A stretch of DNA of 59,326 nt from a virus: IMG/VR virus record IMGVR_UViG_3300035116_000031, positions 1 through 59,326 of that record; one strand, given 5' to 3'. A model generated the notes under the pieces. The model was not told the DNA's origin. It searched no databases and worked only from the letters and a program-made list of their open reading frames with translations. Both the position numbers and the translations under genes were made by a program. Numbering within the stretch: position 1 is the stretch's first letter; each line of letters starts with the position of its first letter. This document shows positions 4,101-38,553 of the stretch, piece by piece.

Positions 4101-5804
4101 ATGAAGCGCACCTTCCTCGTTCTGGCGTTGCTCCTGTGTCCGGTTGCTGGGCACGCGGACTTCATCACCACCAACACCACCTTGCCACCGACGAAGTCGG
4201 ACCTGCACCCGTTGCCCTCGACGGCCGACCCGACGAAGTATTGGGCGGCGGCCGACTACAACTCGCTTATGAACGCGCTCCTCGCGGTGCGCACCGCCAT
4301 CGTGCAGGGCACCTACCAGGGCCTCACGGCGCAGGCGAGCGACCCGCTGCCCGTCTATAGCACGAACTATGAGTGGCTGGGCACGAACGGGAAGCTGCAC
4401 CTGACCCTCATCGGTCCCGTTGACAACCTGGTGGTGTACGGGCCGGTGACCACGAAGGGTGACCTCCTCCCGTTCAACGGCACCACGTTCGCCCGCCTCG
4501 GTGTCGGCGCGGACGGCACGTGTCTCCAGGCCGCGAGCGCGCAGGCCACGGGGTTGACGTGGGGCGCCTGCGGCGGCGGCTCCCTGGGTAACTACACCGC
4601 GTCCGGCAACAACCTTGACATCAGCGTCGCCGGCACGATGGCGTTCGGTACCGGCAACACCAACGCGACGTCGATGACGTTCGGCAATGCGAGCGCCACG
4701 GGGCCGGTGCTGTTCAACGGCGGGCGCCTCCGCTTCCAGCAGCGCGCGCAATCCGGCGCGGGGCTGAACGCGCTTTCGATCATCGGTGGTGGCTCGACGG
4801 CCCTCACCGCCGCCACCGAGTACAGCGCCGTCAACTACCAGCTGAACCAGACGTGGGAGTTCGCCGCGGGTACCGTCGCTACGGAGCGGTTCTACCTGAT
4901 CCAGGCTCCGACGCTCACCGGCGCGTCGGCCACCGCAACGTTCACGAACGCGGCTACGCTCGCGCTCAGCGGCCCGCCCGTTGCTGGTACGAACGCATCC
5001 ATCACCAGCCCGTGGGCGCTGTGGCTGCAGACGGGCAACCTGGGCTTCGGGCCGAACGCGGCGATCGGGCAGAGCTCCCAGTCCGCCACCAACACCACCG
5101 GCTTCACTCTCAATTGCAACGTCGCCGACGGCGCGTCGTCCATCGGCTGCGCGTTCAATAACGTCACCGCCCTGACGAGTGGTAAGCTGTTCTCGTGGCA
5201 GACCGCTGGCGTGGAGCGCATGTCCCTTGCCTACGACGGTAGCACGTTCACGACGCTGACCGGGACCGCCATCGCGTTCAAGCTCGTAAACAACTCTGGC
5301 GACGGCTTCCAACTCGGCGGGTCGGGCACCGTCAATTTCCTCACCGGCGGCGCCGGAATGTACACTATGGACGGCACGTCGTTCTCCTCTGCCGGAGCGC
5401 CGCGCCAGCTCGGCACCAGCGCCGGGCCGTTCTCGTACGCGTATGTTCAGCACCCGAGTGGCGCGGGTACGGCTCCGACGAAAGCGGCCGGGGCGTGCCT
5501 CGGTGGCACCCAGACGGTTACGCTCGACGCGAACGCTCACGATGCGGCCGGAACGATCACCCTCACCGGCACGTCCACTGGAACGGCCAGCGCGACGTGC
5601 GCCACCGTAACCTTCAACTCCACGTGGGTGAACGCCCCGCACTGCCAGATTGCCCCTGTCAACCCCGCCGCATCCGCACTCAGCGGCGCGGCCGCCCTGT
5701 ACGTTGATAGTGCCAGCACCACGACGTCCGTGTTTGTCATCAAGTCGGGCGGGACGGCGCTCGTCGCCGGTACGTACATCTATACCTACGATTGCACGCA
5801 ATAA
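4101..5804 (+). CDS. Fibre-like repetitive protein with an N-terminal signal peptide
   Basis: 567 aa. It begins with a convincing signal peptide (MKRTFLVLALLLCPVAGHAD, cleavage expected near 'GHA'). Next come a helix (YWAAADYNSLMNALLAVRTA) and long Gly/Ser/Thr/Ala-rich beta segments. Among them is 'TTKGDLLPFNGTTFARLGVGADG', here only cited in part, a motif style common in phage tail fibres; the C-terminal domain ends TYIYTYDCTQ. A signal peptide on a fibre-like protein inside a baseplate operon is unusual, since virion fibres are assembled in the cytoplasm. It may be exported, or the hydrophobic end may serve in membrane or virion anchoring. The RBS AAGGAG precedes ATG 4101. Confidence 0.65.
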   Translation: MKRTFLVLALLLCPVAGHADFITTNTTLPPTKSDLHPLPSTADPTKYWAAADYNSLMNALLAVRTAIVQGTYQGLTAQASDPLPVYSTNYEWLGTNGKLHLTLIGPVDNLVVYGPVTTKGDLLPFNGTTFARLGVGADGTCLQAASAQATGLTWGACGGGSLGNYTASGNNLDISVAGTMAFGTGNTNATSMTFGNASATGPVLFNGGRLRFQQRAQSGAGLNALSIIGGGSTALTAATEYSAVNYQLNQTWEFAAGTVATERFYLIQAPTLTGASATATFTNAATLALSGPPVAGTNASITSPWALWLQTGNLGFGPNAAIGQSSQSATNTTGFTLNCNVADGASSIGCAFNNVTALTSGKLFSWQTAGVERMSLAYDGSTFTTLTGTAIAFKLVNNSGDGFQLGGSGTVNFLTGGAGMYTMDGTSFSSAGAPRQLGTSAGPFSYAYVQHPSGAGTAPTKAAGACLGGTQTVTLDANAHDAAGTITLTGTSTGTASATCATVTFNSTWVNAPHCQIAPVNPAASALSGAAALYVDSASTTTSVFVIKSGGTALVAGTYIYTYDCTQ

Positions 5805-5813
5805 GGAGAGCCC

Positions 5814-6191
5814 ATGATGTCCAAGAAGATTCTCGGTCTGTTTCTGGCCCTGGTGGTAGTGGGCTCGTTCGCCGTCGGTGGGCCCCACAAAGCGCGGGCC
5901 TCTTCGGCGGTCGTCTCCATCTCCACCAGCCTGACCTTCAACCTGGTGCAAGTCACCTACCTCTCGAACGGGGACAAGGTCGCTACGTTCAATTGCTTGG
6001 ACTCGAACGGGCAAATCAAAAAGGTGAAATCGTACATCGTTCGCACCGATGGCAGCGGGGTCTACGACACCGACAACGGCTCCCAGCTGGCGGCCAGCTC
6101 CACCACCCTCTCCGGCAACCTTGACACGTTCAAGACGAACGCGGATAGTGGCATGGCCACCGCAGCGAGCGGTGGAAAGGTGGTGTTCTAA
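5814..6191 (+). CDS. Predicted secreted small protein
   Basis: 125 aa with a signal peptide (KKILGLFLALVVVGSFAVGG, cleavage around 'KARA-SS') and a Ser/Thr-rich mature part containing one Cys (ATFNCLDSNG). It follows the signal-peptide fibre-like gene with RBS AAGGAG and overlaps the next gene by one base (TAATG). No family recognised. It belongs to a run of three consecutive genes for exported proteins within the tail operon. Confidence 0.6.
   Translation: MMSKKILGLFLALVVVGSFAVGGPHKARASSAVVSISTSLTFNLVQVTYLSNGDKVATFNCLDSNGQIKKVKSYIVRTDGSGVYDTDNGSQLAASSTTLSGNLDTFKTNADSGMATAASGGKVVF
6121..6149 (+). promoter_or_regulatory. Possible promoter for baseplate genes
   Basis: TTGACA at 6121-6126, a 17-bp spacer and GATAGT at 6144-6149, inside the 3' end of the preceding secreted-protein gene and 42 bp before ATG 6191. 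The perfect -35 and ideal spacing make it one of the better internal promoter candidates; unproven. Confidence 0.35.
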
Positions 6192-6586
6192 TGAAAACGT
6201 TCGCCGTGATGCTGGTGCTGTTGACGGGTGTCCCTGCTTTCGCCTGGCCGCACATGTCGGCCCCGGCCGATGCTGAAGATTCGCCGCGGGCGGCGGGCGC
6301 CGAGCTGGAGGTGGTGTCGGAGGTGGACCGTTTGAAGCTGGAGGTGATTCAGCTCGAGGAGGCGGTGGAGACTCTCCAGCACAACCTGCTCGCCGCGCAG
6401 CAAACCGCTGGGCAGTGCCAGGCCAACCTGATTCAGTGCAGCGCGCCCCAGCTGGAGCAGCACGAGCACGAGGCTGCCGCGAGCCGCGCGCAGCGCAAGG
6501 CAGCCATCATCGACGCCTATCACCTGAGCCCCAACGACCAGGTCTACCAGGACGGCACCATCGTCCGGCGGCCGGAGAAGAAGTAG
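6191..6586 (+). CDS. Predicted exported coiled-coil protein
   Basis: 131 aa. Signal peptide MKTFAVMLVLLTGVPAFAWP with an AFA cleavage site, then a long heptad-rich coiled coil (VDRLKLEVIQLEEAVETLQH) with two Cys (GQCQANLIQC). The C-terminal tail is SPNDQVYQDGTIVRRPEKK. Exported, coiled-coil and encoded by phage, it could be periplasmic (o-spanin-like without a lipobox) or a virion accessory. Its neighbours are exported proteins upstream and gp25 downstream. Function unknown. Confidence 0.6.
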   Translation: MKTFAVMLVLLTGVPAFAWPHMSAPADAEDSPRAAGAELEVVSEVDRLKLEVIQLEEAVETLQHNLLAAQQTAGQCQANLIQCSAPQLEQHEHEAAASRAQRKAAIIDAYHLSPNDQVYQDGTIVRRPEKK

Positions 6587-12626: not shown

Positions 12627-13157
12627 CTATTCCAGACAGGCTCGCAGCACCGTGGCCAAGCCGTCGGCGGGCAAGGAGGAATCCAGCTGAAATTTGTCGC
12701 CCGGGAAGCTCGCGTGGAAGTTTCGCGCCTTGCTCGCCCGCCCTTTGACCCAGGTCTCGTTCTGCTTGGACCCGCGGGCCACGCGGCGGCTGCCAGCCTC
12801 GGGCGTGACCAGGTGCAGGCACACCAGGCGCACCCCGGGCGCGTTGTCCTGGAACCACTTCACCACCGACGCATTGGAGAAGCGGTCTCCGTCCAAGATG
12901 GTGAGGGGCCTGCCTGGCGCGCTCAGGCCGGCGTCCCGCCACCACTCGAGGCAGGCCAGCGCGCCGTCGTACGGTACCGTGTCCGCGCCGTCGAACGTCC
13001 CGCCGGTGTACGTACCCGCGGCGCACGCGCCAGGGGCCACCGTCCACTTGACCTTCCCGGCCACAAACGGGCGGGCATACTCCCCGAGCAGGCGCCGCAC
13101 CAGCGTCGTCTTCCCTGCGCCAGGCTCTCCCACCACGAACAGCACCGTGGGGGTCAC
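12627..13157 (-). CDS. P-loop nucleotide/DNA-base kinase of the TET/JBP module
   Basis: 176 aa from GTG 13157, set by a GTGA overlap with the dioxygenase stop. Walker A is GEPGAGKT (10-17). A signature GTFDGADTVPYDG lies at ~53-65, a Walker-B-like LTILDGDRF at 85-93 and RGSKQNETWVKGR at 128-140. This RGS.QNE.W..GR pattern recalls phage P-loop kinases found near ParB-like proteins. From known thymidine hypermodification pathways, related kinases phosphorylate 5-hydroxymethyluracil in DNA. Coupling to a TET/JBP enzyme makes 5-hydroxymethyl-pyrimidine phosphorylation the leading hypothesis, but the substrate is not shown. Confidence 0.7.
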   Translation of the reverse strand: MTPTVLFVVGEPGAGKTTLVRRLLGEYARPFVAGKVKWTVAPGACAAGTYTGGTFDGADTVPYDGALACLEWWRDAGLSAPGRPLTILDGDRFSNASVVKWFQDNAPGVRLVCLHLVTPEAGSRRVARGSKQNETWVKGRASKARNFHASFPGDKFQLDSSLPADGLATVLRACLE

Positions 13158-14011
13158 TTCCCGGCTCCGGGCGCCTTCGGGTTGTGGCCGCCCTTGGCCC
13201 GCTTCTGCTCGCGCTCGGTGCGCAGCCGGCGGATGCGGGCCAGCTCCTCGCCCAGCGGCTTGCAGTTCCAAATGGCGCGGAGCGAGTAGAACACCACCGT
13301 GAAGCGGTGCGCGTCCATGCGCGTCTTCCTAATGGGCGTCACGCCGTGGAGCACGCCTTGCCCGTCGAACAGGATGAGCGAGCGGTCGGATATCTCCCAC
13401 CCCAGTGGCTTCCCGTCGGGGCCGAGCAGCTCCGGCGTCGCCAGGTGACCGCCCTCGATGCCACGCTTGAAGCCCACCATCCCCGACCACGCCCCCTTCA
13501 GGTTGCCCGAGTCGAAGTGGTACTTCAAAGGGTTGTTATCATTGATAATGCCGGAAGTGAAGGGGGTCTGGCCCAGGCGGTAATCTGGTAGAAACTTCTC
13601 CCTGGCAAGGCCCAGATGCGCCATGTGCTGCTCGGGGTTCCACCGTGCATAGTATGCATCCACCACTTCGGCCAGGCTACATGCCACCGCGTGCTCAGCC
13701 GGATGCTCCCCCGCGGCTCCCGTAGCTGTACAGAAATCGCGCCGAAGCGTGTTACGCGGCAGGTACCCGATGGTCCTGGAATTAGTCTTGAGCCCGGCCG
13801 TTCGATAGTCGTCAACGTACCGGATTTTCTCGAAGGCTCGCCGGACATGCTCGAGGTCCTCCTGCATGTTGACGTAGACCGCCGCGATGCGCCCGCCGAC
13901 GGTGAGCACGGTGCTCTCGGTGACCAGGGTGCCGATGTCGCTGTCCTCGGCTGCCCGCATCTTGTACGCGTCCAGGTCCAGAGCCCGGCGCGAGCCCTGT
14001 AGCTCATGCAT
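13154..14011 (-). CDS. TET/JBP-like 2-oxoglutarate/Fe(II) DNA-base dioxygenase
   Basis: 285 aa from ATG 14011, overlapping the ParB-like stop by 8 nt. The double-stranded beta-helix core carries the H-x-D...H metal triad: H165 and D167 in KYHFDSGN, and H222 in GQGVLHGVTP. The likely 2-oxoglutarate Arg is R236 in HRFTVVFYS. Other TET/JBP-style features are 'TSGIINDNN', 'WSGMVGFKRG' and a Gly-His 'GGHLATPE'. These enzymes oxidise the methyl of 5mC or T in DNA. No cytosine methyltransferase is visible in the window, so thymine (JBP-type, giving 5hmU) is the more economical substrate; this is inference. A Lys/Arg-rich tail (TEREQKRAKGG) may help DNA binding. Confidence 0.75.
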   Translation of the reverse strand: MHELQGSRRALDLDAYKMRAAEDSDIGTLVTESTVLTVGGRIAAVYVNMQEDLEHVRRAFEKIRYVDDYRTAGLKTNSRTIGYLPRNTLRRDFCTATGAAGEHPAEHAVACSLAEVVDAYYARWNPEQHMAHLGLAREKFLPDYRLGQTPFTSGIINDNNPLKYHFDSGNLKGAWSGMVGFKRGIEGGHLATPELLGPDGKPLGWEISDRSLILFDGQGVLHGVTPIRKTRMDAHRFTVVFYSLRAIWNCKPLGEELARIRRLRTEREQKRAKGGHNPKAPGAGK

Positions 14012-14690
14012 CGAACGACCCCGTCGCGTAGGCGCGCAGGAGGTAGTCCACCACGCTGGTGTTGTCGGGCAGGCCTTTGTCGGCCGCGATGCGCTCGAGC
14101 GCCGCCACGACGCGGGCATGCTCCGCCGCGGGGTAGATGAGCACGATCTGGCGCAGGGCATTGTTCATGAAGGTGTCCAGCTTGTCCTCGGGCGTCTTGC
14201 CGATGTCGTCGTCCGAGTGGCGCAGGTCGGCCCCGGCGGTGTCCTGCTCGCCCCCGTCGGCGGTGGGGTTGCTGGCGCTGGGCAGCTGGCCCGTCATGTC
14301 GCGCAGCTCGTCCTCGGTGAAGCCCACCGGGCCCCAGTCGGCCGCGCCGATGCCGCGCATTTCCTCTTGCAGCACCGACACGTCCCACTCGGCCAGCTCG
14401 GCCGTGCGGTTGTCGGCCAGGGCAAACTGGCGCGCTTGCTTGGCCGTGCCCTGAAACTCCACCACGGCCAGCTTGTCCCACCCCAACGCCTTGGCTGCGC
14501 GGTAGGTGCCGTTGCCCGCGATGATCTTGCCCGCCTTGTCCACCACGATGGGCTTCTGCTGGCCCAGCTGGGCGAGCGAGACCTTGATGGCGTCCAGGTT
14601 GCGGGTGGGGTGGCGGCGGGCGTTCTTGGGATCCTCGTGCAGGGTGTCGAGGGCCCGGGTGTCCTTCAGGTTCGGATTGATGTTCGACAT
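14004..14690 (-). CDS. ParB/sulfiredoxin-fold protein of the modification module
   Basis: 228 aa. The N-terminal ~90 residues are a ParB-like domain: 'NARRHPTRNLDAIKVSLAQL', 'GQQKPIVVDKAGKIIAGNG' and TYRAAKALGW. The middle is acidic and disordered (~135-170); a helical C-terminal part contains 'LDTFMNNALRQIVLIYPAAE'. Phage ParB-like proteins often accompany DNA methyltransferases or base-modifying enzymes and may be nucleases, CTP-binding clamps or targeting factors. It is coupled to the TET/JBP gene and is the first gene after a strong promoter. It is not part of a partition system, as no ParA is present. Confidence 0.75.
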   Translation of the reverse strand: MSNINPNLKDTRALDTLHEDPKNARRHPTRNLDAIKVSLAQLGQQKPIVVDKAGKIIAGNGTYRAAKALGWDKLAVVEFQGTAKQARQFALADNRTAELAEWDVSVLQEEMRGIGAADWGPVGFTEDELRDMTGQLPSASNPTADGGEQDTAGADLRHSDDDIGKTPEDKLDTFMNNALRQIVLIYPAAEHARVVAALERIAADKGLPDNTSVVDYLLRAYATGSFDA

Positions 14691-14692
14691 GA

Positions 14693-14725
14693 CCCCGAGG
14701 ATAGACCCTCGGGGAGGGGTGTCAA
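14693..14725 (-). promoter_or_regulatory. Promoter with embedded 8-bp dyad for the ParB-TET/JBP-kinase operon
   Basis: Read on the - strand: TTGACA (14725-14720), a 16-bp spacer, TATCCT (14703-14698), then only 7 nt to the ATG at 14690, so the transcript would be leaderless or nearly so. A perfect dyad CCCCGAGG-N6-CCTCGGGG (14693-14714) surrounds the -10 and part of the spacer, the expected position of a repressor operator. It could alternatively form a hairpin at the start codon in readthrough RNA. Confidence 0.55.
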
Positions 14726-14734
14726 GCGGAAAAG

Positions 14735-15142
14735 CTACGCACCCGAGCCGGGCGTGCCGCCGTCGCACATCATGGGGCCCTGGCCCCCGCCGTCGAGCAG
14801 CTGCGCCGTGCAGTGGGGTAGGGCGTCGAAGTCCAGCCGCGCCATGTCCGCCGGCGCGGCAGGGGGCGGGGTGGGCGCCGGGGTGGCCCAGCACGTGGGC
14901 TCCCCGTTGCAGACCACACAGCGCCAACCGGGCGAGTCGTACTGGGTGCAGCACGAGCCCACGAAGCAGGTCCCGTCCACCGCGGTGACGGGCACGCCCG
15001 GGGCCACGGCGCGCACGTTGGCCGTCCCACCACACTGCCCGTCCGACACGCAGGCCGCTCCGTCCGGCAGTCGCTGCTCGAGCGCCCCGCCACCGCACCC
15101 GACCATCGAGAAAGTGAGCACCAGAGCCGCCAGCGTGCGCAT
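14735..15142 (-). CDS. Cys-rich lipoprotein, myxobacterial style
   Basis: 135 aa with a lipoprotein signal peptide (MRTLAALVLTFSMVGCGGG; lipobox MVGC, Cys16) and about ten further Cys in the mature part (DGAACVSDGQCGG, TCFVGSCC, RCVVCNGEPTC). The strong RBS AGGAGG precedes the ATG. 'C..D..C' repeats are a hallmark of secreted Myxococcota proteins. A phage-encoded surface lipoprotein could act in superinfection exclusion or as a spanin, but neither is shown. Confidence 0.65.
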   Translation of the reverse strand: MRTLAALVLTFSMVGCGGGALEQRLPDGAACVSDGQCGGTANVRAVAPGVPVTAVDGTCFVGSCCTQYDSPGWRCVVCNGEPTCWATPAPTPPPAAPADMARLDFDALPHCTAQLLDGGGQGPMMCDGGTPGSGA

Positions 15143-20040: not shown

Positions 20041-21327
20041 CTAGACCTTGACGTTTACGACCTGGGTGCCGTCGGGCCACCCGCCCGTGCACTCCGCCAC
20101 CAGGGCGACCACGAAACGGCGGCCCGAGCGCGGTGCCGGCGGCCACGGCTCGCAAGGGTAGCCGTCGGTCAGGTGGATGACGGCGTCGAACTTCTTGTGC
20201 TGGCGGTCCAGCTCCTCGTAAGCCGGCGTGAAAGCGGTGCCCCCGCGGCCGATGTGCGTGCGCTGGGCCACCCGTGTGCGGTCCATGCCGTCGACCCACC
20301 CCGAGAATTGCACCACGGCGTCGTGCGTGACCAGGTAGATGCGGGCCTCGCCGACGTGGGCAATCTCCACGATTTCATCCACGATTTTGGACAGCTGCTC
20401 GTCGGACACCGACCCGCTCGAGTCCACGATGCAGGCGACGGAGACCTTGGTGCTCTTCCAGCCCGGGAAGATGATGCGGGCGGGCGACCTGCGGTTGCGG
20501 CGGGACATGGTCTGCTCGTCGCGGCCATGCTGGGCGACGGCACGGGCCACCGTCGACTTGAGCAGCTGCTTCCAGCGCATGGCCTGGCGGCGCTCGAACA
20601 GGCGCCCGAGTGCCTTGCCCGCCTCGGTGCCGGCGGCGATGTTGCGCGCCTGCACCGCGACCTTCTCCCATTCCTGCTCCCACTCCTGGGGCGTCTGTGG
20701 CTCTCCCGCAGGCCCGCCAGAGCCGTCAGCCTTGTCACCCTCCCCCGTACCACCCCCCGGCTCTTCCCCAGGCTCTACGCCGCAGCCGGCGCACGGCTGG
20801 GGGCCTTCCCCGCCCTTGGACCCGGTGCCGTTGGACCCACGGCCCAGCTTCAGCACCGCGCCTCCCCCGCCCTGGCCGTTCTCCCGCACCTGCTCGGCCA
20901 GCTGCTCGTACAGCTGCTCGGTGTTCTTGTCCTCCATCCCCTGGGGCGGGTAGATGGCGCAACCGGGCAGCTTGACACCCATCTCCTTGAGCACCTGGTT
21001 GATGGCCATGTCGGCCGTGATGTTGAACAGGGAGATGGGCCGGGGGTGTCCCTCGGCCGTCACCATCATGGTGCGGTTCTCCTGGCGGTAGGCGTGGTTC
21101 ATCATCAGGTGCATGATTTCGTGGAACAGCACCCCGGCCAGCTCCTGCTCGTTCAGCGTGGCTGCCCAGGCTGCGTTCACCCGCACCTTGCCGTTCAGCT
21201 GCACGGACATGGTCTCGGTCTTCTCGTCCTCGACGATGGTGAGCCGCGACAGGGCGGGCAGGAAGAACGGGTGGTTCCACCCGACGCCAATGCCCAGCTC
21301 GCGCAGCTTGTCGGTGAGCACGCTCAC
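20041..21327 (-). CDS. VWA-like metallopeptidase-domain protein (DUF2201 type)
   Basis: 428 aa from GTG 21327 (GTGA overlap upstream). The N-terminal domain has a complete zinc-peptidase-like motif HEIMHLMMNH (H69, E70, H73, H78). The middle is Gly/Pro-rich, and the C-terminal VWA-like domain has a MIDAS-type CIVDSSGSVSD near residue ~297. In bacteria this architecture pairs with a MoxR-type AAA+ ATPase, and one is encoded two genes upstream. A chaperone-like or maturation role with MoxR is likely; the substrate is unknown. Confidence 0.75.
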   Translation of the reverse strand: MSVLTDKLRELGIGVGWNHPFFLPALSRLTIVEDEKTETMSVQLNGKVRVNAAWAATLNEQELAGVLFHEIMHLMMNHAYRQENRTMMVTAEGHPRPISLFNITADMAINQVLKEMGVKLPGCAIYPPQGMEDKNTEQLYEQLAEQVRENGQGGGGAVLKLGRGSNGTGSKGGEGPQPCAGCGVEPGEEPGGGTGEGDKADGSGGPAGEPQTPQEWEQEWEKVAVQARNIAAGTEAGKALGRLFERRQAMRWKQLLKSTVARAVAQHGRDEQTMSRRNRRSPARIIFPGWKSTKVSVACIVDSSGSVSDEQLSKIVDEIVEIAHVGEARIYLVTHDAVVQFSGWVDGMDRTRVAQRTHIGRGGTAFTPAYEELDRQHKKFDAVIHLTDGYPCEPWPPAPRSGRRFVVALVAECTGGWPDGTQVVNVKV

Positions 21328-21915: not shown

Positions 21916-23013
21916 TTAGCGCTGCGCCGCCTGCTTCGGCAGGGACTTCAGTATGTTCAGGCGAGCCAGCGCACCCTTCTTGCGGTGCGGGCTGTCGGCA
22001 TGCCCGTCCTCGGTGGAGCCGGAGCGCTTCATCAGCATCTTGCCGCTGGCGGCCCGCAGCTCGGCGCACAGGCGGTCGGCGACAATCATGGCGGCCCACT
22101 TGTCGCGCTCCGACACGCGGGCGATGAGGCCCACCGCGCCGATTTGGCGGCGCTTGTCGTCGGGCACCTTGACGTTCTCCGGGTCCTTCAGGCACTCGTC
22201 GATGGTGGGCAGAAACTTCCGCAGGTCCATGATGGCCTCGTACGCCAGGGCCTGGGTCTGCCCGACGTTGGAGGCGGTGACCATCTGGCGCACCACCTTG
22301 TCGCCGTTACCCAGCGCCGCGCGGGCCCGCAGCGCGCGCTCCCACGCTCGGGGCGCACCCCAGGGCTTGTTCCCCGTGACGGCCGTGTCCGGGATGTCGA
22401 TTTGGAGCAGGTCCGACTGGACGCGCAGCGTGGCGGCGAATTCCAGCGCCTCGTCGCGCAAGCCGGGCAGGGCGGCGTCCTCCAGGTCGTCAAAGAAGTC
22501 CTGCACCTCCTGGTGGGTGGGGCGCAGGTGGAAGACCGCCAGGCGGCCCATCAGCGGCGCGGACAGCTCCGAGCCACCGGGGCTCTGCTCGGGCGGGTTG
22601 GTCGCGGCCACCACCCGCGTGTCGGGGTGCAGCTCGCAGTCGCCAAAGCAGCGCTCGAGGATGCCGCGCAGCATGGCCGCCTGGACCGCCGGCGGGGCGC
22701 AGGCCAGCTCGTCCAGGAAGAGGAGGCCCGGCTGCTCGCACAGGCGGCGGATGAGCTCCAGCGGGATGCGGTCGATGCCCTTGCCGTCCACCCGCACGAC
22801 GGGCATGCCACCGAGGTCGGTGGGGTCCATGGTAGAGCCGATGACCACCGCCAGCTGCGTCCCCAGGCGCTTTGCCACCTGGCGCATCAGAGCGCTCTTG
22901 CCGACGCCCGGGTCACCGATGAGCATGGTGCCGATGTTGGCCTCGAGGCCCGCCAGGATGGCCGCCTCCGCCTGCTTGAACGAGACCTGCGGAATTTCCT
23001 TGTCAATCGCCAT
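21916..23013 (-). CDS. MoxR-like AAA+ ATPase
   Basis: 365 aa, RBS GGAGGACAGCA. Walker A is GDPGVGKS (33-40), Walker B LLFLDELA (97-104), and a sensor-1 region VVAATNPPEQ lies near 140. A C-terminal helical lid and a basic tail follow. MoxR ATPases act with VWA-domain partners to remodel or activate proteins; the VWA/metallopeptidase gene lies three genes downstream on the same strand. Confidence 0.8.
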   Translation of the reverse strand: MAIDKEIPQVSFKQAEAAILAGLEANIGTMLIGDPGVGKSALMRQVAKRLGTQLAVVIGSTMDPTDLGGMPVVRVDGKGIDRIPLELIRRLCEQPGLLFLDELACAPPAVQAAMLRGILERCFGDCELHPDTRVVAATNPPEQSPGGSELSAPLMGRLAVFHLRPTHQEVQDFFDDLEDAALPGLRDEALEFAATLRVQSDLLQIDIPDTAVTGNKPWGAPRAWERALRARAALGNGDKVVRQMVTASNVGQTQALAYEAIMDLRKFLPTIDECLKDPENVKVPDDKRRQIGAVGLIARVSERDKWAAMIVADRLCAELRAASGKMLMKRSGSTEDGHADSPHRKKGALARLNILKSLPKQAAQR

Positions 23014-26837: not shown

Positions 26838-27188
26838 TCAGCCCTCCTTCGTGTCCAGGCGCGCGGCCGACGCGGCGTGCGAGTACCCCCGCGGGTACCG
26901 CAAGGCCAGCTTCATCGCGTTGATTTCCAGCAGCTCCTCGAGCGTCCACCCGTACGAGCGGGCGAGCCGCACCAGGTACCACAGGACGTCGCCCATCTCC
27001 TTGGCGACGTCCCCCGCCAGCGCCGGCCGGCCGTGGTAGACCTCTTTCTTGACCAGCTCGGCCACCTCACCCGCCTCGCCACACAGGCCCAGGGCGTAGT
27101 ATTCGCGCTCCTGGGGGCCGTTGGGCTCGGTCTGCTCGGTGGCCTCCAGGTACGCCCTGGTGAGCGCTCCGTTGGCGTTGGTGCCCAT
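26838..27188 (-). CDS. MazG-like nucleotide pyrophosphohydrolase
   Basis: 116 aa. All-alpha NTP-PPase motif: GEAGEVAELVKKE with E38, E41 and E44, then KEMGDVLWYLVRL with E64 and D67. ATG 27188 overlaps the upstream stop (TGATG). It may remove unwanted (d)NTPs or lower an alarmone signal; substrate unknown. Confidence 0.75.
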   Translation of the reverse strand: MGTNANGALTRAYLEATEQTEPNGPQEREYYALGLCGEAGEVAELVKKEVYHGRPALAGDVAKEMGDVLWYLVRLARSYGWTLEELLEINAMKLALRYPRGYSHAASAARLDTKEG

Positions 27189-27811
27189 CACTGGCCTCGT
27201 CCGCGACGGGTGAACGCCTTGGCCAGCGACTGCTCCAGCGGGCACATCTGGCAGTGGGGGTCGTTGCAACGCGTCAGCTGCTCGGTCTCGGGCGCCGGGG
27301 TCGGCACCTTCAGCGGCTCGCCCGTGCGAAACCACTGCTCCTCGTCGGGCGTGAAGGCCTGCGCCAGCGGCCCGTCGGGCTCGGTGATGGGCAGCTCCAG
27401 CTGCGCGTCCGCGGCCTCCGAGACGGGCGGCGTGGCCGTGTACTGCGGCTCCGGCGCAGGACGGTTGTCCAGCTCTCCGGGCAGCCTGCCCGCCTCGATG
27501 GCGGCGAGGGTCTGCATGTAGCCGAAGGCGTTCCACGCGATGGCGGCGGCGTGGTCCTCCTCGGGCTCGCCCGCCACCAGGCAGTTCACGTGTCGCATCA
27601 TGCTGTCGATGTAGCGCATGAGGGGCTGACCCTTCTCCCAATTGCGGTCGCCGTACTTGGCAGCGCCGCGCTCGTAGAGGCCCGCCAGGCGCCGCAGCGG
27701 CTCGGTGGGGATGAGGTCGTAGCGCCCCTTGCCCGTCGGCAGGTCACGAACCGAGCCGGTGCCGAATTCTTGCCGCGCGCCACTGTCTTTGGTCACGTAT
27801 TCTTTGCTCAC
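27188..27811 (-). CDS. dATP/dGTP diphosphohydrolase-like protein (MazZ/DUF5664 type)
   Basis: 207 aa from GTG 27811 (RBS AAAGGAG). N-terminal domain: KGRYDLIPTEPLRRLAGLYE, 'GAAKYGDRNWEKGQPLMRYI', 'HVNCLVAGEPEEDHAAAIAW', the pattern of the dGTP/dATP diphosphohydrolase N-terminal family that includes MazZ. The C-terminal ~80 residues are Pro/Glu-rich and end with a Cys cluster (RCNDPHCQMC). MazZ acts in 2-aminoadenine phages, but no PurZ is visible, so general dNTP control is more likely. Confidence 0.7.
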   Translation of the reverse strand: MSKEYVTKDSGARQEFGTGSVRDLPTGKGRYDLIPTEPLRRLAGLYERGAAKYGDRNWEKGQPLMRYIDSMMRHVNCLVAGEPEEDHAAAIAWNAFGYMQTLAAIEAGRLPGELDNRPAPEPQYTATPPVSEAADAQLELPITEPDGPLAQAFTPDEEQWFRTGEPLKVPTPAPETEQLTRCNDPHCQMCPLEQSLAKAFTRRGRGQ

Positions 27812-37574: not shown

Positions 37575-37822
37575 CACAACCGCACCAGCGACGGGCCGTA
37601 TCCGTACTCTTCAGCGGTTATGAATTCCCCCCTCGGGTGCTCGTCTTCGGTCTGGTTACACACGAGTTTTCCGGTGTTCGGCTCGACCAGCTTCCACCCG
37701 CCAGGTTCAAGCACCGCGTTCAGCTCCTTGAGCACCTTCCTAGCGTTCAGGTATGTCCAGGCCCTCAAGTCCTCCCGCCCTTGCACGTAATGCGTCAGGA
37801 CGTGGACGGCCTCCTCGCGCAT
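37574..37822 (-). CDS. Small paralogous protein (family B)
   Basis: 82 aa from ATG 37822 (TGATG overlap with the HD gene stop). REEAVHVLTHYVQGRED and AEEYGYGPSLVRL match the termini of the protein at 37272; the middle differs (LEPGGWKLVEPNTGK). Confidence 0.55.
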   Translation of the reverse strand: MREEAVHVLTHYVQGREDLRAWTYLNARKVLKELNAVLEPGGWKLVEPNTGKLVCNQTEDEHPRGEFITAEEYGYGPSLVRL

Positions 37823-38553
37823 CACGGCACGTCCCCCAGGTCCGCCCGCACTTCGCGGTGCTCTAGGTCGCCGCCGCAGTCTCCACACACCCGGCGCCAG
37901 TACCCGCCGACGAGCGGTTCCACACCGTCGGTGTGCACCACCAGCACCCCGCCGCACGTCCGGCACGCGCCGGCACCGTTGCGGGGGTCGTCCAGGTACA
38001 GGTCGGCATAGCGGCGCAGGAACGTCGCGCGTGCGTTGTCGGCACCCCAGGGCACCACCGACCCGCGAAACTGGTAGGCCTGGGGGTTGCGCAAGGCCTC
38101 GGGCTGGCGCGTCAGGTCGCGCTGCTCGGCCGCGCACACCACCATGTCCGCCTCGTGCACCGCGGGGCTGCCCCACGCCGTCAGGCCGAAGCGCAAGGCG
38201 ATGGCCGACTCGAACACCTGCTCCACGGCGCGGTACCCCAGCATCTGCGGCGCCTTCTTGAACGGGCGGGGGATGTCCTTCAGGTAGGCCTCGGCCGCGT
38301 CGTGGAGCAGGGCCTCCAGGCGCAAATGGCGCGGCACGTGCCAGCTCACGAGCACGCAATGCTGGGCGACGGAGTAGTGCTCCCGCACATGACCGCCGAA
38401 GCGGCACTCCAGGGCCAAGGCGTGGGCGATGTCCTCGATGTGGAGGTCGTCCACCACAGGGCGCGTCGGGTCCACCAGCACGCCGTGGGGGTACGTGCGG
38501 ATGGCCTGGCGCCGCGGGGCAGGTGGCGGCGGTGGCGTGGCGGCGGGGTGCAT
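37822..38553 (-). CDS. HD-domain phosphohydrolase with C-terminal zinc ribbon
   Basis: 243 aa, RBS GAGGAG. HD motif: H65 in SVAQHCVLVS, H84-D85 in ALLHDAAEAY, D136 in VHEADMVV, the YfbR/DatZ-type layout, with KDIPRPFKK after the HD pair. The C-terminal ~50 residues add a zinc ribbon (CRTCGG ... CGDCGG). Likely a dNTP hydrolase; the ribbon is an unusual addition. Confidence 0.72.
   Translation of the reverse strand: MHPAATPPPPPAPRRQAIRTYPHGVLVDPTRPVVDDLHIEDIAHALALECRFGGHVREHYSVAQHCVLVSWHVPRHLRLEALLHDAAEAYLKDIPRPFKKAPQMLGYRAVEQVFESAIALRFGLTAWGSPAVHEADMVVCAAEQRDLTRQPEALRNPQAYQFRGSVVPWGADNARATFLRRYADLYLDDPRNGAGACRTCGGVLVVHTDGVEPLVGGYWRRVCGDCGGDLEHREVRADLGDVP

Follow-up and report, generated by a model that had tools for sequence, protein, structure and literature searches.

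The viral record IMGVR_UViG_3300035116_000031 from IMG/VR is linear, and the window that we analyzed is the entire record of 59,326 bases, with a GC content of about 68%. Its terminase, portal, DNA polymerase A, and primase-like genes mark the source as a tailed phage. IMG/VR states no completeness for this record, so that genes for enzymes not found in it may be located beyond its ends. An earlier note on this DNA had placed a ParB-like, a TET/JBP dioxygenase, and a P-loop kinase gene on the minus strand, and our ORF calls recovered all three (Table 1). The GC content at codon position 3 is 0.83-0.94 in these ORFs, the range that genuine genes should show at 68% GC. The ParB and TET genes overlap by 8 bp and the TET and kinase genes by 4 bp, an arrangement that suggests translational coupling. 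Among the proteins with signal-peptide or lipoprotein-like starts, one is short, Cys-rich, and encoded directly upstream of ParB.

Table 1. Positions of the three-gene unit, its putative control elements, and other features in the window
Feature	Position	Strand	Remarks
ParB/Srx-like DNA-binding protein, first gene of the unit	14004-14690	minus	228 aa, ATG start
TET/JBP Fe(II)/2-oxoglutarate dioxygenase	13154-14011	minus	285 aa, ATG start
P-loop nucleotide-kinase-fold protein, proposed to phosphorylate the hydroxymethyl group in DNA	12627-13157	minus	PF18751; 176 aa, GTG start
Sigma-70-like promoter TTGACA-16-TATCCT	14698-14725	minus	Consensus match, 7 nt before the ParB ATG
Perfect 7-bp inverted repeat CCCGAGG-N6-CCTCGGG	14694-14713	.	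Overlaps the -10 element; candidate operator
dATP/dGTP pyrophosphohydrolase-like protein and MazG	27188-27811 and 26838-27188	minus	PF18909, PHROG 801
Deoxyribonucleoside 5'-monophosphate phosphatase-like protein, nucleotide-pool enzyme	37822-38553	minus	PHROG 318, E=2e-53
DUF2201 metallopeptidase/VWA-like protein near MoxR-like AAA ATPase	20041-21327 and 21916-23013	minus	
Proteins with signal-peptide or lipoprotein-like starts	4101-5804, 5814-6191, 6191-6586, 14735-15142		

The site before ParB is the sole perfect match to TTGACA-16-TATnnT in the window (0.32 sites expected with at most one mismatch), and the 3-kb region contains 1 promoter-like site, versus 0.1 in shuffled sequences. A single promoter had been proposed for the three genes; given one consensus match upstream of ParB, a common ParB-TET-kinase transcript is plausible, and the ParB transcript is possibly leaderless. 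The inverted repeat is the window's only mismatch-free copy, imperfect matches are no commoner than chance, and it may represent a putative operator.

We compared the dioxygenase with sequence and structure families. It scored 32.0 bits against Pfam Tet_JBP (PF12851, E=8.9e-8; cut-off 34.9), and the TET homologues of phages Tonitrus, Nigel, and Phelemich likewise scored under the cut-off, as did relatives in phages that carry a Tet-like annotation. It also matched PHROG 6059 (E=8e-33). The iron/2-oxoglutarate site HFD...H...R previously read from the sequence held up, as the iron ligands H165, D167, and H222 and the 2-oxoglutarate-binding R236 do not vary among 51 homologues. A profile built from nine phage TET homologues retrieved from the PDB mainly TET2, CMD1, and NgTet1, weakly, plus one unrelated protein. 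The earlier note had also called for a structure-based search of the dioxygenase. In the AlphaFold2 model (pLDDT 93.5), the predicted double-stranded beta-helix is closest to TET/JBP structures: TET2-DNA, CMD1-DNA, NgTet1-DNA, and CcTet ranked above FTO and AlkB proteins, with TET2, CMD1, and NgTet1 first. The Pfam match, the profile search, and the predicted fold bear out that the window dioxygenase is a TET/JBP-family member.

PHROG 6059 labels the TETs of KayaCho (L005, 810-1766) and Nigel (L009, 776-1744) as queuine tRNA-ribosyltransferase; Saguaro gp2 has the same name, yet its alignment marks it as unrelated. A more distant, second clade of TET-like proteins (L096, L103, L122, L125, and similar loci) has HTD/HQD, Asp for Asn at position 170, and AHN for GHV, and also adjoins PF18751-like kinases. 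At locus L093, a TET of this distant clade is paired with the kinase closest to that of the window.

The kinase scored 33.9 bits against Ploopntkinase3 (PF18751), above the cut-off of 27, and its model (pLDDT 94.5) matches small-molecule kinases best; the score and the predicted fold agree with its earlier identification as a P-loop kinase. G10, G15, K16, G57, D59, G90, and R92 are invariant in 47 kinase homologues, and R128 and Q132 are nearly so. The link to phage 5-hydroxymethyluracil kinases drawn in the earlier note stood only in part. In its favor, the window kinase shares PHROG 800 with gp54 of phage M6, which we take to be the biochemically studied 5-hmdU DNA kinase of that phage. However, PF18751, and not the 5-hmdU DNA kinase family PF18748, is among the matches listed for the window kinase, whereas M6 gp54 matches PF18748. 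Judging from its neighbors and its PHROG rather than from PF18748 membership, the window kinase may work like a DNA kinase in this context. The activity of the purified M6 5-hmdU DNA kinase has been mentioned (PMC6449724), and we found no biochemistry of PF18751 in the literature.

PHROG 800 is labeled terminase small subunit, and this name is given to the Pops kinase (L012, 1-567) and to M6 gp54 (L176, 21686-22249). We rejected this identity for the window kinase: the label is misleading, as M6 gp54, a PF18748 protein, is also placed there.

The ParB-like protein scored 24.3 bits against ParB_N (cut-off 26.3) and matched PHROG 620 (E=7e-35). The canonical CTP-binding box of ParB is GERRxRA. 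The corresponding box reads AGNGTYRAA in the window and AGNHT in relatives, and thus departs from the canonical arginine-rich form. A nuclease function had been offered as one option for ParB, but we found no evidence for it; the protein is instead a near-constant partner of TET. The role of ParB beside DNA-modifying enzymes has been described as unknown (PMC12783734).

A single-protein search of IMG/VR with the TET found nothing, and an alignment search found 567 TET relatives. The closest loci are L013 (TET 52% identical, same three-gene order) and L093 (kinase 55% identical). In the 83 best TET-anchored loci, a descriptive sample of best-scoring loci with near-copies included, 76 of 85 TET genes have a same-strand ParB partner, and the third gene is a kinase in 20 loci, 12 of these with an amino acid:DNA transferase (ADDT). 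Elsewhere this place is taken by the TET-associated glycosyltransferase (TAGT, PF20691), by a further glycosyltransferase-like cluster, by an FkbM-type methyltransferase, or in rare cases by a C5-methyltransferase. Mapped onto a tree of 73 TETs, the third-gene labels need 12-16 changes, and the TETs of L021 and L019, one kinase-linked and one glycosyltransferase-linked, are sisters (support 99). Such a pattern would arise if the hydroxymethylated base stayed the same and only its tailoring step were swapped. The survey points to a plug-in design in which ParB and TET form a constant core and the third enzyme is interchangeable.

The closest TETs in GenBank, 30-37% identical over most of the protein, come from Rhodococcus, Gordonia, Mycobacterium, Microbacterium, and Arthrobacter phages. 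Margaery and Kharcho carry ParB-TET-kinase, the Gordonia phage Wooper carries ParB-TET-ADDT-kinase, the Rhodococcus phage Tonitrus does likewise with small extra genes added, and Phelemich carries ParB-TET-ADDT-FAD protein-kinase. The arrangement is not new: identical or extended cassettes exist in actinophages, and that of Tonitrus has been published as a five-gene putative thymidine hypermodification system (PMC11955845). In the window, the ParB, TET, and kinase genes are adjacent, co-directional, and ordered as in the actinophages, and they are a further example of a known, mostly uncharacterized cassette type. In the Arthrobacter phage Bumble, the unannotated 3' region of the GenBank record (L007, 3850-7275) contains ParB, TET, and two further frames, which we named by eye as glycosyltransferase-like and PIG-L deacetylase-like.

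We propose that the unit probably oxidizes a base, most likely thymine, in the virus's own DNA and then adds a phosphate. The families and folds of the three proteins, the linkage of their genes, the recurrence of the cassette, and the absence from the record of the enzymes that usually supply hydroxymethyl-dUMP or 5-methylcytosine were computed; what we infer is the base, the sequence of the reactions, the function of ParB, and phosphate as the end product. After replication, the TET/JBP protein, using Fe(II), O2, and 2-oxoglutarate, would turn thymine in phage DNA into 5-hydroxymethyluracil (5hmU) by hydroxylating its 5-methyl group. ParB, as the constant partner of TET, would bind DNA and help to choose or present sites. 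The kinase would then use ATP to phosphorylate the hydroxymethyl group; the resulting base, 5-phosphomethyl-dU, bulky and negatively charged, would block restriction enzymes. We lean, with modest confidence, towards such a self-contained phage unit, in which TET acts on T in DNA, ParB aids site choice, and phosphorylation follows, all after replication. The sequence of oxidation in DNA and then phosphorylation, already suggested in the earlier note, matches the related cassettes that add ADDT. In the M6/ViI-type pathway, 5hmdU is first phosphorylated by the kinase, and the transferases follow (PMC6449724).

We wondered whether 5hmU itself might be the end product, with the kinase having another job, for example in DNA packaging or nucleotide metabolism. 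PF18751 proteins directly precede terminase genes and persist without TET, as in Pops (kinase then terminase) and Saguaro (ParB-DpdA-like-Que genes-kinase-terminase), whose kinases keep the conserved residues; the kinase-bearing contigs L164, L105, L124, and L142 also gave no TET match. The PHROG 800 label and the resemblance of the fold to small-molecule kinases point in the same direction. In the window, however, it is the TET gene that the kinase gene overlaps, with the terminase about 30 kb away, and Kharcho encodes a PF18751 kinase together with a separate terminase small subunit. The PHROG 800 name is no guide here, as M6 gp54 scores as a 5-hmdU DNA kinase, and a kinase-anchored scan of IMG/VR found 55 of 80 best-scoring loci to have a TET no more than 7 kb away (ADDT in 39 of 80). 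We therefore consider 5hmU unlikely as the end product. In TET-less phages with PF18751, either the kinase has another role or unrecognized hydroxymethylating enzymes remain.

As to which base is oxidized, the record contains neither a C5-methyltransferase (PF00145) nor a thymidylate-synthase/dUMP-hydroxymethylase (PF00303), in agreement with the earlier note, which had seen no cytosine methyltransferase and no dUMP hydroxymethylase. PF00303 was found in none of the 42 records that are TET-anchored or from named phages, many records being fragments, and this rarity is as expected if TET replaces the hydroxymethylase. The only hit among 39 kinase-anchored records is on a 288-kb contig with a kinase and ADDT and no TET. 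PF00145 scored above cut-off in 3 of the 42 and 4 of the 39 records, 7 of 81 in total. The TET sequence does not show the base, since the TETs adjoining C5-methyltransferases (L020, L069, L073) do not differ from other TETs in their active-site residues. None of 28 active-site positions separates C5-methyltransferase-linked from kinase-linked TETs, and the residue aligning with what we take to be TET2 H1904 is mostly Leu in all main-clade classes. The counts of PF00303 and PF00145, the link to ADDT, a thymidine-pathway enzyme, and the reported selectivity of a 5-HMU DNA kinase, which phosphorylates hmU in DNA but not hmC (PMC6457204), make thymine the better guess.

In a cytosine route, 5mC made in phage DNA by the host or a partner would be oxidized by TET to 5hmC, which the kinase would phosphorylate. 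This would fit the solved-structure homologues, which act on 5mC or were solved with 5mC-DNA, the three relatives next to C5-methyltransferases with unchanged active-site residues, and a TAGT family member whose presumed substrate in T6-like phages is glucosylated hydroxymethylcytosine (PMC13390438). Yet the window has no C5-methyltransferase and few related records have one, the DNA kinase studied so far does not take hmC, and the kinase partners carry ADDT. We regard the cytosine route as rather improbable.

A dATP/dGTP pyrophosphohydrolase-like protein (PF18909, E=4e-19; PHROG 801) lies beside MazG and DNA polymerase A, which suggested Z-genome (2-aminoadenine) chemistry. We rejected this chemistry, as no PurZ-type PF00709 was found in the record.

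Returning to thymine, we asked what may follow phosphorylation. Neither ADDT (PF18724) nor TAGT (PF20691) was detected in the window at E<=1. Since no ADDT or glycosyltransferase was recognized in the record, the phosphate may be the final product; this possibility is what is unusual about the unit. In vitro, phosphorylation of hmU is by itself enough to make DNA resist additional Type II enzymes (PMC7653180); a phosphate end product would therefore be useful. We tentatively suggest, as a possibility short of even, that thymine is oxidized in finished DNA and the phosphate is final, leaving 5-phosphomethyl-deoxyuridine at ParB-chosen sites in the virion; our literature search found no report of this nucleoside as a terminal phage base. 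That the unit is instead a decaying or incomplete ADDT cassette, with the missing downstream enzyme supplied by another, unrecognized gene of the phage, seems very unlikely: many relatives have ADDT plus FAD or amidotransferase genes and many window genes lack a family match, but PF18724 and PF20691 are absent at the above threshold, and the short cassette is a recurrent form, being present in Nigel, KayaCho, and L013 as well.

If the proposal is true, phages need not rebuild the nucleotide pool to hypermodify thymine; two enzymes and a DNA-binding partner acting on finished DNA suffice. The three-gene form in the window is among the smallest to assay, and its value is that of a minimal testable example; it would make testable which base phage TETs oxidize and what ParB does beside DNA-modifying enzymes. 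The names attached to PHROG 6059 and PHROG 800 are misleading and conceal such systems.

Mycobacterial viruses were already known to carry DNA-armoring gene sets, and the cassette is a compact member of that family. In Nigel and KayaCho, mycobacteriophages of the Bclasvirinae, ParB-TET-kinase occurs at the left genome end in the same order as in the window with no added gene, the TETs being 32-33% and the kinases 26% identical to those of the window. Their kinase gene runs straight into the terminase gene, whereas in the window a long distance separates the unit from the terminase, and a promoter-like site of its own precedes it. Tonitrus and Wooper share ParB, TET, and the PF18751 kinase with the window, but add ADDT (PF18724) and a further protein, and the window lacks PF18724.

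The phages M6, ViI, and phiW-14, whose hypermodified thymidine derives from 5hmdU, resemble our proposal in that a phosphate is placed on the hydroxymethyl group of uracil in DNA, and the M6 kinase falls in PHROG 800. In this type, however, a thymidylate-synthase homologue installs the hydroxymethyl group at the nucleotide stage (M6 gp58 carries the annotation thymidylate synthase), while the window has no PF00303; moreover, the M6 kinase belongs to PF18748 and is accompanied by ADDT, whereas the window kinase belongs to PF18751 and is not. JBP oxidizes T in DNA. The ParB-TET-TAGT cassettes of IMG/VR contigs (such as L038 and L173) and base J synthesis are like the window in using a TET and a tailoring enzyme after hydroxylation, the cassettes also in having ParB. 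In these cassettes and in kinetoplastid base J, the third step adds a sugar, whereas in the window we propose that it would add a phosphate.
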